Source of the DNA: a virus
Strand: one strand, 5' to 3'
Length of the DNA: 43,841 nucleotides
IMG/VR virus record: IMGVR_UViG_3300045257_000031
Span: 1-43,841 of that record
Shown here: piece by piece, positions 1,611 to 43,505 of the stretch
Position numbering within the stretch: the first letter of the stretch is position 1
How the letters are laid out: the number at the start of each line of letters is the position of its first letter
Position numbers and translations under genes: made by a program
The notes under the pieces: model-generated
Database searches by the model: none
Told to the model about the DNA's origin: nothing
What the model saw: the letters and a program-made list of their open reading frames with translations, nothing else

Positions 1611-1806
1611 TTACATATCCACCGCCTGCTACCATGATCTTCATGCCAAGTGCAGGCTTGACTGCAAGTGGTGCGAAGAAAAGTGTGACTGTTACTGCCA
1701 TGAAGGTGCAGCAGTAGAGAAGATCGCCCCGAAGGGCGATCCGATGAGGGCAATCATTCTCAAGCTCTATGGTGAGAATCTAGTTAAGGTGGATCATGCG
1801 GCGTGA
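1600..1806 (+). CDS. Cys/His-rich mini-protein 2
   Basis: A 68-aa protein whose N-terminal 35 residues repeat the pattern of mini-protein 1: STACYHDLHAKC, DCKWCEEKC, then DCYCHEG. The remaining C-terminal part (KIAPKGDPMRAIILKLYGEN) is not in the first copy. The ATG at 1600 overlaps the end of copy 1 and the gene ends over the start of the sigma-like gene, so the four genes form one coupled operon. Probably zinc binding; function unknown. Confidence 0.65.
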   Translation: MAHNYISTACYHDLHAKCRLDCKWCEEKCDCYCHEGAAVEKIAPKGDPMRAIILKLYGENLVKVDHAA

Positions 1807-2491
1807 AGTGATCCAGCCATGGATCCACACAGCGGCTGGCAGTGTCAGCAGGGCGTACTCCTCCTGGATCACCTACGCTGACACTGCCAACACACTGTGG
1901 TTGTGGGCCGTACAGAACGAGTCGAGAGTCGATGAATACCTGAGTCAGCCGGATGGTGAGCGGATAGTCCGCTCGATCCTAGCCAAGGAGGCTCGAACCT
2001 ACGCTATTAAGGAGCGCGCAGTGAGCACAGGTTACTCTCCAGAAGATCTCGCCTGGTATAGCCCGCGCCAGATCAGGAACCTCCTGCCGGACGTATTTGA
2101 CTACGAGAACTGGCAGGGTTCATCTGGCGGTGGTGATGGTCGAGGCAGCAAGCCACTGGCGAACGCCACTGGAGACAGGCTGGCCTCTATTCTGGATGTC
2201 AAGTCTGGGTACGAGAAGCTTCTCGTGAGTCAGCAGCTCGTGCTGAAGCTCTTCTTCGATGAGGGTAATAGCCTGGAAGCCATCGCCTTCATCCTGGGCA
2301 TCACTGAGGAAGCCGCCAGGAAGAGGCTGGACAGGGCCGTGTACGCCCTCGGAGACAAGCTGAACAACCCTCGTGCAGGAGACCCGTACGAGGCTGTCAA
2401 CGGGCAGTTCGACACCACCAGCAAGGGGCGTCGTGCCCAGTCCAATGCCTCTGCACGGGCCAGGACGGATGGAAACTGGGATGGATCATGA
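1796..2491 (+). CDS. Sigma-factor-like helix-turn-helix protein
   Basis: A 231-aa protein. Around residues 140-195 it has a region-4-like segment: SQQLVLKLFFDEGNSLEAIA followed by FILGITEEAARKRLDRAV, the typical layout of a sigma-70 region-4 helix-turn-helix (acidic loop, helix, turn G-I-T, recognition helix with KRLDRA). The N-terminal half (SWITYADTANTLWLW...EARTYAIKERA) is not a clear region 2, so it may be an anti-sigma, a sigma mimic or simply a DNA-binding regulator. A Gly/Ser-rich linker (GSSGGGDGRGS) joins the halves. It overlaps both neighbours by a few bases. Likely to redirect host RNA polymerase or control phage transcription; this is inference. Confidence 0.7.
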   Translation: MRREVIQPWIHTAAGSVSRAYSSWITYADTANTLWLWAVQNESRVDEYLSQPDGERIVRSILAKEARTYAIKERAVSTGYSPEDLAWYSPRQIRNLLPDVFDYENWQGSSGGGDGRGSKPLANATGDRLASILDVKSGYEKLLVSQQLVLKLFFDEGNSLEAIAFILGITEEAARKRLDRAVYALGDKLNNPRAGDPYEAVNGQFDTTSKGRRAQSNASARARTDGNWDGS

Positions 2492-3265: not shown

Positions 3266-3485
3266 ACCAATCTCCCACTCTTGTTGAGTCGTATACGAGC
3301 TGACTGACACATGCGAAGTTCCACTGATCCTTCGCAACAAACTCCACCGCATGGCAGTGATCGGCAGGATCATCACGCAATCCCACCACGGTGCCAGACT
3401 TTATAGGGTAAGCCTGCTCGTTATGGCATCCAGCCAAGCAGAGGACAAGGGCCGCCCCCGAGAGGGCGGCCTTCACCATCTTCAC
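3252..3485 (-). CDS. Small secreted lipoprotein
   Basis: A 77-aa protein with a classical lipoprotein signal: KMVK, a hydrophobic stretch (AALSGAALVLCLA) and the lipobox L-C-L-A-G-C, giving lipidation at Cys20. The mature part has about 57 residues and two further Cys (DHCHAVEF and NFACVSQL), which could form a disulphide. Small phage lipoproteins are known to block superinfection or to act as outer-membrane spanins; with no obvious partner the first is the better guess. An 8-bp hairpin (3450-3471) lies within the signal-peptide codons. Confidence 0.75.
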   Translation of the reverse strand: MKMVKAALSGAALVLCLAGCHNEQAYPIKSGTVVGLRDDPADHCHAVEFVAKDQWNFACVSQLVYDSTRVGDWYEGE

Positions 3486-8988: not shown

Positions 8989-9215
8989 CAGTGACAATCC
9001 TTGCATTCAATGGCTGTGTGCCTGTCTCACCTTCGATGCCATGATCCAATGACACACTGACCCACATGATCGCGGGCACTGACTTCCTGATGTGTACATG
9101 ACCCGGGGGTTTTAAGTTTCGATCCAGGTGGAAGAAGTGAGACCCCACACAAATCTGTCATAGATTCTGTCTGATAGATCCCACTATGTCCCATCTACCC
9201 ATAGGGTAGTAGTAG

Positions 9216-9231
9216 TGTGACGTACATCACA
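9216..9231. promoter_or_regulatory. Perfect CRP/GlxR-type operator
   Basis: TGTGACGTACATCACA matches TGTGA-N6-TCACA exactly, and also the actinobacterial GlxR form with TA at the centre. Symmetry extends one base on each side (GTGTGA...TCACAC). About 50 bp downstream is a -10-like TATATAGT (9271-9278) with no good -35; a start near 9285 would place the site at about -61, the classical class I activator position. This suggests that a host cAMP-receptor-family regulator controls the late promoter. Site seen directly; regulation inferred. Confidence 0.55.
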
Positions 9232-9411
9232 CAAACTGGTCTGTCCTCAAAAGGCCGATTGACAGCAGTATATATAGTGAGGAGTGTTTCACTCAGCAGC
9301 TCAAGGCCAGCAGGACCCGGTGTAGGGTACCAGAGGCGTAGTGCCAGAGAGCTTGCTAGACCTCATGACATGTGGTACGCTTCTAAGTCTTTTAGTAGTA
9401 TATCTATGTCT

Positions 9412-9425: not shown

Positions 9426-9434
9426 CTGCTAGAA

Positions 9435-9456
9435 GGGATCCCCCTAAGGGGATCCC
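9435..9456. terminator. Strong hairpin upstream of late operon
   Basis: Perfect 9-bp stem GGGATCCCC/GGGGATCCC with loop CTAA. It lies between the upstream operators and the -10-like element at 9492, and could insulate the late promoter from upstream transcription or attenuate it. Confidence 0.55.
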
Positions 9457-9491
9457 GTTAAGCATGTAAACATGTTCAAAGTCTAACTGGT

Positions 9492-9497
9492 TATAAT
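9492..9497 (+). promoter_or_regulatory. -10-like TATAAT element
   Basis: Exact TATAAT about 145 bp before the terminase start. No convincing -35 lies 16-18 bp upstream. Without mapping of the transcript start this remains a candidate. Confidence 0.35.
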
Positions 9498-9542
9498 TAC
9501 TACCTCCTAGACTGTTCCCATGGGGATCCTCTCCCCGTTCCA

Positions 9543-9564
9543 AAGCGGCCCTCAGGGGCCGCTT
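9543..9564 (+). terminator. Hairpin in the late-operon leader
   Basis: Perfect 9-bp stem AAGCGGCCC/GGGCCGCTT with loop TCAG, 77 nt before the terminase start codon. It is probably transcribed with the late message, so it would be an attenuator or an mRNA 5'-end stabiliser. Confidence 0.5.
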
Positions 9565-9640
9565 CTAGCATTCATCCAGGATGATCATGATGCGACTGAC
9601 GACCGAAGGTCGTACTTCGCATATTTAGAGAATAGGGACC

Positions 9641-11542
9641 ATGGCGCAAATCCGAGAACTGACCACGCCCGAGAAGAAGCGGGCCTTCCTCAGGCTCACT
9701 CAGGCTGGTGTCGGTCGGATGAAGGCCATCGCCGAGATCGGTGTCACTTCTCCTGCCATCACGTATTGGCGCAAGAGTGACAACGAGTTCCGCGCCCAGG
9801 ATGACCGCATCAAGATGTCTCGGCTGGAAGTGCAGCCGGAGACTGCCAACGAGATGCCTAGCTTCCAGGCCTTCTGCAAGAAGTACCTGGACACTGAGAT
9901 GTTCAACCATCATCTCCAATGGCTGGACGTCCTGGAGGGACGTCCCCCCAGGAATCTGCATGAGAATCAGGTGTACATCAAGGGTGAGCCGGAGTTCCTC
10001 CTGATCAACACTCCGCCTGAGCATGCGAAGAGTACGACGATCACCACGAACTATGTGACGTACCGGATCTGCGAAGACCCGAATATCCGAGTGATCATCG
10101 TCTCCCAGACTCAGGAGATGGCCAAGAAGTTCCTTCGAGGCATCAAGGACCGCCTGGCGTCGAACAACACGAACTACCGCAAGCTTCAGATCGACTTCGC
10201 CCCTGATGGCGGCTTCGATCAGAATGCTTCCTCCTGGACTGCTGACAGCATCTACGTCAGCTCCGACCTCCGAGACTCCGGAGAGAAGGACCCTACGGTT
10301 CAGGCTCTCTCGATCGGTGGTCACATCTATGGGAGTCGCGCAGACCTCATCATCTTGGATGACTGCGTGACGGGCAAGAATGCCCATGAGTACCAGAAGC
10401 AGATGGACTGGCTCCAGCGTGAGGTGTACAACCGCCTCTCCTATCCCGGCGGCAGGATTCTCCTCGTCGGTACCAGGCTGGCTCCCACTGACCTTTACGG
10501 TGAGATTATCAAGGACGAGTACTACGGAGAAGAGCGCAGTCCGTGGACGTACCTGACTCAACCGGCAGTGCTGGAGTTCGCTGACAAGCCAGAAGATTGG
10601 AAGACTCTGTGGCCCTACACCAACAGGCCGCCGGTCTCCCTTGTTGGACGCTCTCTCGTGTCCAAGAATGCCGATGGACTCTATCCGATGTGGACTGGCC
10701 CTGCGCTCAAAAAGCGCAGGGCTTCCATGTCTCCCAGGAACTGGGCTCTCGTCTACCAGCAGGAACGTGTAGTCGATGATGCCATCTTCAATCAGAAGGC
10801 AGTCATGGGCGCCGTTGATGCGGGCAGATCCCCTGGCCCCATGGGTGGTGGAACAGTCGGGGGAAGAGAGCGTGGCATCGAAGGGTGCTACGTGGTGGGT
10901 GGCTTCGACCCTGCCATGACCGGTGACAGTGCGGCAGTGGTTATCGCACTGGATCGGATGACCGGCATGCGGTGGGTCCTGGACGTCTGGGCCAAGGGAC
11001 ATTGCAAGCCGGATGACCTCTTTGACAAGATCAAGGAGTGGACGGTGAAGTACAAGATGAACGAGTGGCGCATCGAGAAGAACGCCATGAACCTCATGGT
11101 TACCCAGAACCGTGAGATCCGTACCTTCCTGGCATCCCGAGGATGCCTTCTGAGGGAGCACTTCACCGGTTCCAACAAGTGGGATTCCGACTTCGGAGTC
11201 GCCTCCATGTCCATGCTGTTCGACGGATGGGAGTCGAAGAAGCAGCTGATCAGGCTTCCCTCGAAGAGCAGTGAGGGCATGCGTGCCCTCATCGAGCAGT
11301 TGACCACATGGGAACCCGATCAGCCTGGCATGAAGTCCAAGCGCAAGACCGACACCGTGATGGCTCTCTGGTTCGCAGAGATCCGGTGTCGAGAGCTGAT
11401 CGATGAAGCTGTGGAGATCGAGTATCACACCAAGAACCCTTGGGCAACCGACAGGGACAAGAGGAAGCAGATGGTTGTAGATCTTGATTACATGTCCCAG
11501 GCTGCCATGAACAATGGAGTAGGGGATTGGTGGTCAGGGTGA
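9641..11542 (+). CDS. terL: Terminase large subunit (with N-terminal HTH)
   Basis: A 633-aa packaging ATPase-nuclease that cuts and translocates DNA into the capsid through the portal. Residues 120-132 hold a terminase P-loop (NTPPEHAKS), residues 234-241 a Walker B (ADLIILDD), and FDPAMTGDS at 422-430 begins the RNase-H-like nuclease; a C-terminal KTDTVMALW supplies a late acidic residue. Residues 10-50 (KKRAFLRLTQAGVGRMKAIA, then EIGVTSPAITYWRKSD) read as a helix-turn-helix of the kind found in small terminase subunits. No separate small-subunit gene is visible, so DNA recognition may be fused here. A 10-bp hairpin (10698-10722) lies within the gene. It opens the late operon. Confidence 0.92.
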   Translation: MAQIRELTTPEKKRAFLRLTQAGVGRMKAIAEIGVTSPAITYWRKSDNEFRAQDDRIKMSRLEVQPETANEMPSFQAFCKKYLDTEMFNHHLQWLDVLEGRPPRNLHENQVYIKGEPEFLLINTPPEHAKSTTITTNYVTYRICEDPNIRVIIVSQTQEMAKKFLRGIKDRLASNNTNYRKLQIDFAPDGGFDQNASSWTADSIYVSSDLRDSGEKDPTVQALSIGGHIYGSRADLIILDDCVTGKNAHEYQKQMDWLQREVYNRLSYPGGRILLVGTRLAPTDLYGEIIKDEYYGEERSPWTYLTQPAVLEFADKPEDWKTLWPYTNRPPVSLVGRSLVSKNADGLYPMWTGPALKKRRASMSPRNWALVYQQERVVDDAIFNQKAVMGAVDAGRSPGPMGGGTVGGRERGIEGCYVVGGFDPAMTGDSAAVVIALDRMTGMRWVLDVWAKGHCKPDDLFDKIKEWTVKYKMNEWRIEKNAMNLMVTQNREIRTFLASRGCLLREHFTGSNKWDSDFGVASMSMLFDGWESKKQLIRLPSKSSEGMRALIEQLTTWEPDQPGMKSKRKTDTVMALWFAEIRCRELIDEAVEIEYHTKNPWATDRDKRKQMVVDLDYMSQAAMNNGVGDWWSG

Positions 11543-24890: not shown

Positions 24891-24962
24891 AGCGGGATAG
24901 ATCAGTGGTAGATCGCCTGGCTCATAACCAGGAAGTCGTGAGTTCGAATCTCACTCCCGCCA
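24891..24962 (+). tRNA. tRNA with CAT anticodon (Met, or Ile if lysidine-modified)
   Basis: Cloverleaf visible: acceptor 5' strand AGCGGGA and 3' strand TCCCGCC, T8/A9, D stem GATC/GATC with loop AGTGGTA, anticodon stem CCTGG/CCAGG with loop CTCATAA, T stem GTGAG/CTCAC with loop TTCGAAT, discriminator A. Position 1 is A opposite C72, so the first pair is a mismatch. The 3' CCA is not encoded. The anticodon stem lacks the three G:C pairs of an initiator. It lies inside the late structural operon. Confidence 0.85.
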
Positions 24963-24964
24963 CT

Positions 24965-24990
24965 TTTCGACTCAAGGTCTTGAGTCGAAA
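24965..24990 (+). other. Hairpin between the two tRNAs
   Basis: Perfect 11-bp stem TTTCGACTCAA/TTGAGTCGAAA with loop GGTC, filling the spacer between the tRNAs. Probably a processing signal (for example RNase III or RNase E/J) that separates the tRNAs from the mRNA; without a U-tract a terminator is less likely. Confidence 0.65.
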
Positions 24991-24993
24991 TAC

Positions 24994-25064
24994 GATCCAC
25001 TCTTCTAAGGGTAGGAAGCTAGCTTGTCACGCTAGTAATCGGAGTTCAATTCTCCGGTGGATCG
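24994..25064 (+). tRNA. tRNA-Asp (GTC)
   Basis: Acceptor GATCCAC/GTGGATC perfect over 7 bp, D arm TTCT...AGGA, anticodon stem CTAGC/GCTAG with loop TTGTCAC (anticodon GTC), T stem CGGAG/CTCCG with loop TTCAATT, discriminator G as expected for Asp. The 3' CCA is not encoded (CCG follows). Phage tRNAs usually top up codons used more by the phage than the host. Confidence 0.88.
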
Positions 25065-25123
25065 CCGAGACAAGACCGACCGGCCCTCATGTCTCGCAAT
25101 CACAAGTCCGGTAGAACGAATCT

Positions 25124-37459: not shown

Positions 37460-37568
37460 GATGTCCCTTGTCCGTTGGTTCCAGCGCTTCTCGTGCTTCA
37501 GTGTGACACTCTTCACAGTGCTCATCGTTGATGAGCCAGCAGACGGGACAGTGCTCAGTCGTCTCCAT
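37449..37568 (-). CDS. Zinc-knuckle mini-protein
   Basis: A 39-aa protein from ATG 37566-37568 after GAGGAAGAGATCA. TEHCPVCWLINDEHCEECHT gives two C-x2-C pairs 7 residues apart, an unambiguous zinc-ribbon layout. Acidic overall. Function unknown. Confidence 0.6.
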   Translation of the reverse strand: METTEHCPVCWLINDEHCEECHTEAREALEPTDKGHRED

Positions 37569-42211: not shown

Positions 42212-43023
42212 AACGGATAACCTCCATCTTTCTCGACAGTATCAAAGTACTTGGTCCGGGCCGTAAGCCCGGACTGTAGCTTGCAGTTCGGCTTCTGCTC
42301 GCAGAACTTGCATGCGAACTCGGGCATGGCAGGGAAGATCTTCTTAGCGATCCGCTCTTCCACTTCATGGAACTTGGCACCCATCGACTCGGGTGTCTCC
42401 TTCAGTTCCACCTTGCGGACTGGATCCTTGTACAGGCCAGGCTTGAGCATGGCCCATAGTCCGACCCACTCACCACGATTAACGACAGCTGCATGCCGCC
42501 GACTCACTTCGAGTAGAGCATTGTACGTCTCAAGCTGCAAGGCGTTCTTCGGCTTGGCTCCAGTCTTCCAGTCAAGGATCACTGGGCCATGCTTCCTGTG
42601 TTCACCGAGTACATCAGGGAAGCCCTTGATGGGCAGTGAGCAGCCCGGCAGATAGCCGGTGATGTCAGGCTCAACTTCCCAGACTTCAACGTCCTGGAGG
42701 ATCGTCAGCGCCGTTTCGACGCATGCTTCAGCGTGCTTGAGTGCAACTTCTTCGATGAGGGGAGCCTCTTGGTTCCCCGAGTAGAGCCACTTCGATGTGT
42801 CAGCTTCGATGAGCTGAAGCTTTTCAACTTCACTGATGAAGAGTGACTCGACCGAGACTTCGCTTCCGCCGAGATGCAGTTCGATGTAACTGTGAACAGC
42901 AGTGCCAATAGCAAAATACCAGGCAGGTAGCGCCTCAGCATGCTTGACCCTTCCCAGGTAGTACCTTCTAGGGCATCCATTGTAAGTGTTCAGACTTGAG
43001 AAGCTCAGGTGTTCAATGGTCAT
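42208..43023 (-). CDS. Cas4-family RecB-like exonuclease
   Basis: A 271-aa PD-(D/E)xK nuclease. Motifs in order: LSFSSLNTYNGCPRRYYLG (Cys17, first iron-sulphur ligand), TAVHSYIE (His), KGFPDVLGE and VILDWKTG (metal-binding D...D-x-K), QLETYNALLE, and the C-terminal Cys cluster ACKFCEQKPNC. This is the Cas4/AddB-like iron-sulphur exonuclease layout. No cas1/cas2 or CRISPR array is present; such stand-alone genes are common in actinobacteriophages and act in recombination or host DNA degradation. An 8-bp hairpin (42254-42274) falls at the Cys-cluster end. Confidence 0.85.
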   Translation of the reverse strand: MTIEHLSFSSLNTYNGCPRRYYLGRVKHAEALPAWYFAIGTAVHSYIELHLGGSEVSVESLFISEVEKLQLIEADTSKWLYSGNQEAPLIEEVALKHAEACVETALTILQDVEVWEVEPDITGYLPGCSLPIKGFPDVLGEHRKHGPVILDWKTGAKPKNALQLETYNALLEVSRRHAAVVNRGEWVGLWAMLKPGLYKDPVRKVELKETPESMGAKFHEVEERIAKKIFPAMPEFACKFCEQKPNCKLQSGLTARTKYFDTVEKDGGYPF

Positions 43024-43505
43024 ACACTAATGTTAGCAGACAAACGCGCTGCCTTACGGGCAGCGCTTCTCCTGGCAGTGAACTGATCAGCGGTGGCCTT
43101 CGTACATTGAAGGCATCGTGTTGACCCCTTCCAGAAGACAAGATCATTGACTGTCAGGATTGGATGCCTGACAGTCTGACCCATGCACTCCCCTCTATTG
43201 ATCATGAATGCTCCCTGTTCCTCGCTTGGAAGCTGGTACTTCCGAACGGGGGAAGGGACGAGGGTCAACTTGCCAGGCAGGATGCCACCACGAATGGATT
43301 CCATCCTGTCATCCATCGTTGCGAAGTCCAGGCAGTGCTTGACCACTGGACAGGTTCGGCAGTATGTGGCAATGGCCCTCTCATTGAGGGCCACATCATT
43401 CATGGACTTCGACTTGAAGTCGAAGTCTTCTGGATACTCAGCATCCTTGCAGGATGCATATGTACTCCAGTCGTTCCCATCTATGGTTCTATCCGACGTG
43501 ATCAC
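43020..43505 (-). CDS. WhiB-like iron-sulphur transcription regulator
   Basis: A 161-aa protein from GTG 43503-43505, after AGGAAGA. Four Cys that bind a [4Fe-4S] cluster: YASCKD (Cys19), ATYCRTCPVVKHC (Cys49, 52, 58), then MESIRGGILP in place of the G-V/I-W-G-G turn and a basic tail. WhiB proteins are found only in actinobacteria and their phages and bind the principal sigma factor. This one is longer than usual: a second part with a C-x2-C (RCLQCTKATADQ) and a basic Ala-rich end. Phage WhiBs can block host WhiB function. An 8-bp hairpin (43046-43066) is inside the 3' end. Confidence 0.9.
   Translation of the reverse strand: MITSDRTIDGNDWSTYASCKDAEYPEDFDFKSKSMNDVALNERAIATYCRTCPVVKHCLDFATMDDRMESIRGGILPGKLTLVPSPVRKYQLPSEEQGAFMINRGECMGQTVRHPILTVNDLVFWKGSTRCLQCTKATADQFTARRSAARKAARLSANISV

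Follow-up and report, generated by a model that had tools for sequence, protein, structure and literature searches.

A conserved CRP/GlxR-type site in the late-operon promoter of a Beephvirinae-like phage and its probable recognition by host Crp

The IMG/VR virus record IMGVR_UViG_3300045257_000031, analysed here over its whole length of 43,841 nucleotides (the window), contains an exact CRP/GlxR-type dyad, TGTGAN6TCACA, 5' of the gene of the large terminase (terL), with which the late operon begins. Many Streptomyces-type and freshwater relatives carry such a site at the corresponding promoter, which answers in the affirmative a check proposed in an earlier, sequence-only reading of the window. 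The dyad is probably a binding site of the host Crp (GlxR-type) in the late-operon promoter, most likely a class I activating one, accompanied by a phage regulator on a neighbouring inverted repeat. Crp binding, activation and a role of cyclic AMP (cAMP) are what we infer from the position, conservation and host counterparts of the site.

The dyad and the anatomy of the late promoter

The dyad TGTGACGTACATCACA is located 76 bp inside the predicted left unique end of the genome and 410 bp 5' of terL (Table 1). Its centre lies 49.5 bp upstream of the hexamer TATAGT and, if this hexamer is taken as the -10 element, transcription would start at about position 9285 and the dyad would be centred at -61.5. 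The sequence-only reading had described the site as an exact CRP consensus with a TA centre, placed near -61 of a promoter possessing a -10-like element and lacking a -35 element. The exact consensus was found and the distance agrees; the TA centre is present in the window but is not conserved in the relatives. A search for a sigma-70 -35/-10 pair at the promoter site found none, and a host sigma-70 promoter was rejected as a reading; the -35 region, however, is occupied by an inverted repeat (TGTCC-N13-TGACA), which had been missed, as had a second box slot situated 36 nucleotides from the terminal-repeat cut. The TATATATAG sequence, which overlaps the hexamer, occurs once in the window, and its columns are 98–100% identical in the aligned relatives.

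The inverted repeat keeps its position and not its sequence, reading TGTCC..GGACA in the Streptomyces phages and GGGATAAA..TTTATCCC or GGAAAT..ATTTCC in the freshwater clades. Its arms are clearly longer than those of shuffled sequence in one class (7.12 vs. 4.08 nucleotides), and the difference is weak in the other (5.50 vs. 4.17). A dimeric regulator specific to each clade is the putative binder of the repeat.

Dinucleotide shuffles of the window contained at least one exact dyad in 14% of cases (P about 0.14) and two in 1%; since a sequence of 43.8 kb not uncommonly contains one exact dyad, the match at 9216 taken alone is weak evidence, and the site is significant because it is conserved at the same promoter in the relatives, on which ground a chance match was rejected. 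Related records have one exact dyad or none. The window contains a second exact TGTGAN6TCACA, TGTGACACTCTTCACA, at 37502–37517 in the early-gene region, which is probably a chance match. The sequence GTGAGTCCCC was also considered as a further CRP box and rejected; it represents the end motif of the terminal repeat, and its variation leads away from the dyad.

Conservation of the site in Streptomyces-type and freshwater phages

TGTGAC-type dyads are present 5' of the terminase gene in most close relatives, and boxes were found in the terL upstream regions of phages Immanuel3, FlowerPower, Manuel, E7 and F5. In the Streptomyces-type relatives, the boxes occupy two slots, slot 2 being tied to the promoter and slot 1 to the terminal-repeat cut. 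The centre of slot 2, to which the dyad of the window belongs, and the first T of TATATATA are 45.5 bp apart in the window and in four relatives, and the distance is within 1 bp of this value in three others (range 44.5–46.5). In 11 relatives, of which five are near-identical, slot 1 keeps a distance of 36–37 nucleotides to the cut, although its separation from the promoter ranges between 91.5 and 123.5. Two boxes, separated by about 46–57 bp, are present in several Streptomyces phages. In five relatives, about seven palindromes similar to TGGTCTAGACCA form an array directly before the terminal-repeat end (positions 3392–3519 in L007); these palindromes resemble dre sites, the targets of the host regulator DasR.

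More distant phages were sampled by a motif-driven scan of viral contigs for TGTGAN6TCACA followed, after 20 to 50 nucleotides, by TATATATAG, the control being this pattern after its two half-sites had been exchanged. The scan revealed at least 119 stretches with the box and TATATATAG, compared to nine for the control, and among these the gaps cluster within the allowed range, at 35 (64 stretches), 39 (32) and 36 nucleotides (11). A homologue of the window TerL, in nearly all cases 40–48% identical, is encoded in 104 of the 119 listed stretches, with the promoter mostly 170–900 bp upstream; several of the remaining listed stretches terminate before terL.

Because the motif-driven scan requires the motif, two more sets were picked by TerL similarity alone. 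In these sets, all 96 distinct freshwater promoters that have a recognisable -10 element contain the box, with no more than one of its ten positions mismatched; five control dyads never showed fewer than two mismatches in the same promoters. The gaps are again fixed, being 35 or 51 nucleotides in one set and 36, 38 or 39 in the other. Most of the TerL-selected loci without a recognisable -10 element still carry the box, the -10 element being altered, and two loci (L476 and L477) show a symmetric change of the box to AGTGA..TCACT. Column identity reaches 0.97–0.99 at the ten contact bases, compared to 0.60–0.73 in the N6 spacer and 0.60–0.75 upstream. The cultivated Planktophila phages E7 and F5 (OX376640 and OX376641; PMC10202952) possess exact dyads about 700 nucleotides upstream of terL, with no TATATATAG nearby.

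The binding protein, the proposed mechanism and its alternatives

Searches for a CRP or cyclic-nucleotide-monophosphate-binding domain in the window and for a CRP-type helix-turn-helix in 19 related records gave nothing above the cut-off, and a phage-encoded CRP was rejected. The dyad occurs 41 times in six Streptomyces genomes, compared to two occurrences of the reversed control pattern, and the summed totals for 80 Actinomycetota genomes are 160 and 18 for the dyad and control, respectively. The identical 16-mer of the window box is present once in one Streptomyces genome, and the Immanuel3 slot 1 sequence TGTGACCTGCATCACA once in another. Under a matrix built from host N6 spacers, the phage spacers score 2.33 bits, compared to -1.25 for all N6, and none of 20,000 random sets scored as high. 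The phage box also agrees with the published Crp/GlxR consensus, GTG-N6-GNCAC and GTG-N8-CAC (PMC10033298). Since the host sites are of the same kind and the phages encode no CRP, host Crp is the likely and most economical binder. Among 80 Streptomyces loci, Crp is 95–100% identical; about 80–140 nucleotides before crp, these loci have a conserved near-dyad, TGTGATTGATCGCACT / TGTGACAGATCACACT, which is consistent with crp autoregulation.

In the proposed mechanism, Crp would bind at about -60 of the late promoter and recruit the polymerase in class I fashion, through the alpha subunit, to the TATATATAG promoter, which has no recognisable -35 element. The inverted repeat over the -35 region would probably be bound by a phage-encoded clade-specific regulator, and the timing would be set there; that the box stays constant next to a changing inverted repeat points to a host protein that does not vary and a phage protein that diversifies. 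The sigma-like protein of the phage is a candidate reader of the TATATATAG element, and the WhiB-like protein, the gene of which is present in 18 of the 19 related records, might be an alternative regulator of the late promoter. DNA binding by some actinobacterial Crp proteins is only weakly cAMP-dependent. The arrangement resembles class I CRP promoters of the Escherichia coli lac type and actinobacterial Crp/GlxR targets in having TGTGAN6TCACA near -61.5, a poor or missing -35 element and a good -10 element; it differs from class I promoters in belonging to a phage, in the extra inverted repeat over the -35 region, in a spacing that drifts between clades and in that activation is a proposal.

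The sequence-only reading had seen a CRP/GlxR operator placed for class I activation of the late region; the class I-like distance and the conservation speak for it, but several observations weigh against it. The spacing is not strictly helical: the dyad centre ranges from -55.5 to -75.5 across the relatives, with slot 2 at 39.5 bp from TATATATA in three Streptomyces-type relatives (box at about -55.5) and the box of one freshwater clade at about -75.5, compared to -59.5 to -61.5 elsewhere. Seven relatives have their good dyad in slot 1, farther upstream, and three others keep the promoter and lack the box, so the box is not essential everywhere. More distant TerL lineages also have no box, which makes it a trait of certain clades and not of the whole terminase family. 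A weak point of the class I geometry is the transcript start, which is a predicted one. Class I activation is thus the best reading of the promoter and an unproven one.

The non-helical changes of spacing, as well as the paired boxes of several Streptomyces phages, would suit a repressor or looping, and there is a precedent in phage T1, the promoters of which are inhibited by cAMP-CRP (PMC6737242); bound host Crp might likewise repress the late promoter at an early stage of infection or when the nutrient state is wrong. Such repression is, however, rather unlikely, as the box at about -60 overlaps neither the -10 nor the -35 region and a promoter without a recognisable -35 element is typical of activator dependence. 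It is quite unlikely, too, that a protein of the phage itself, sharing the CRP consensus by coincidence, binds the dyad. Phage regulators without an explanation do exist (sigma-like, WhiB-like and many unknowns), and each genome has about one box, at a single promoter; nevertheless, no CRP-type domain was found, the host genomes share both the dyad and the N6 bias, and the box stays constant across terminases of only 40–48% identity, while the inverted repeat changes, which fits a constant host protein.

Integration host factor acts at lambda cosB, bending the DNA for terminase. A similar role in packaging, with Crp bending the DNA beside the terminal-repeat cut, would account for the fixed place of slot 1 relative to the cut and for the location of all the promoter and box elements of the window within 150 bp of it, but is very unlikely, since slot 1 is degraded in the window and its nearest relatives, where the promoter-linked slot 2 alone is intact, and the box of the freshwater phages holds a constant distance to the -10 element.

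Genome context and biological meaning

The window appears to be a Beephvirinae-like genome, of the virulent Streptomyces podovirus type. It has terL, portal, capsid and replication genes homologous to those of Beephvirinae, in an order largely kept relative to Immanuel3, and the identity to the Beephvirinae capsid and portal proteins is 78% and 64%, respectively; genes encoding endolysin, portal, capsid and tail proteins follow terL on the plus strand. Phage Abafar of this subfamily is a virulent podovirus (PMC11536984), and a TerL scan across bacterial genomes yielded no matches, so that a prophage state was rejected. The direct terminal repeats of Immanuel3 (275 bp), FlowerPower (253 bp) and Manuel (276 bp) all end at the ACCCGGGGGTT motif; the right-end motif of the relatives, ACCCGGGGGTT...GTG/AGTCCCC, where the slash marks the cut, has a counterpart at 9101–9150 in the window. 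The terminal repeat of the window itself is a predicted one, since the contig carries a single copy of the end motif. Only two tRNA genes (Met and Asp) are present in the window, at 24891–25066, compared to about 21–22 annotated between the same genes in Immanuel3 and FlowerPower.

Table 1. Features of the late-promoter region and related genes of the window
Feature	Coordinates	Strand	Remarks
Phage-encoded sigma-like protein	1796..2491	+	phrog_354 'sigma-K factor', E 4e-14; Pfam Sigma70_r4, E 1e-5
Right end of direct terminal repeat	9101..9139	+	ACCCGGGGGTT...GAAGTG/AGACCCC; cut after 9139, placed by homology
Degenerate slot 1 dyad TGTCTGATAGATCCCA	9168..9183		7/10; centre exactly 36 nucleotides from the predicted terminal-repeat cut
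CRP/GlxR-type dyad TGTGACGTACATCACA (slot 2)	9216..9231		exact TGTGAN6TCACA, 10/10; centre about -61.5; promoter position conserved in relatives
Inverted repeat TGTCC-N13-TGACA	9242..9264		one mismatch; centred about -31 to -32, over the -35 region
-10 element TATATATAGT of the late promoter	9269..9278	+	contains TATATATAG (9269–9277) and TATAGT (9273–9278)
Covarying hairpin in the 5' leader of the late transcript	9307..9341	+	window and several relatives
Large terminase, first gene of the late operon	9641..11542	+	64–71% amino acid identity to Beephvirinae terminases; synteny with Immanuel3
WhiB-like protein, actinobacterial family	43020..43505	-	Pfam PF02467, E 9e-7

The 5' leader of the late transcript contains a hairpin with conserved flanks (CCAGCAGG-ACCC-GGTGTA-GGGT-A-CC-AGAGGCGTAG), in which 100% of the pair cells are kept, with eight two-sided changes and a covariation score of 0.54, compared to 0.19 for shuffled sequence. 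An Rfam search of the leader gave nothing significant; the hairpin is possibly an antitermination element or another leader RNA element. Farther along the 360-nucleotide leader, at 9430–9580, there are more strong G+C-rich hairpins without T runs, near 9435–9456 and 9545–9566, and the relatives are similar in this respect.

The action of host CRP on phage promoters is known already. In phage T1, a promoter is under direct regulation by host CRP (PMC6737242), as is predicted here; unlike in T1, the promoter here is a late one, in virulent actinophages, and its perfect box is deeply conserved. Literature searches, of incomplete coverage, found no report of a conserved perfect CRP box in actinophage late promoters. 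The window shares its TerL family both with the Beephvirinae phages Immanuel3, FlowerPower, Manuel and Abafar and with the Planktophila phages E7 and F5, from which it differs in having TATATATAG near the box.

Perhaps, and this is put forward tentatively, with somewhat less than even confidence, an ancient and large group of virulent actinophages, with hosts from Streptomyces to abundant freshwater actinobacteria, has its late operon under the control of host cAMP-Crp, so that virion production would be licensed by the nutrient state of the host, with a fast-evolving phage operator alongside. The prediction is simple and can be tested with sequenced phages in Streptomyces, and the box together with the -10 element can be used as a genomic signature of such phages and of the late promoter they carry. 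If the proposal is true, the late expression of common freshwater and soil actinophages would be tied to a regulator of the nutrient state of their hosts.
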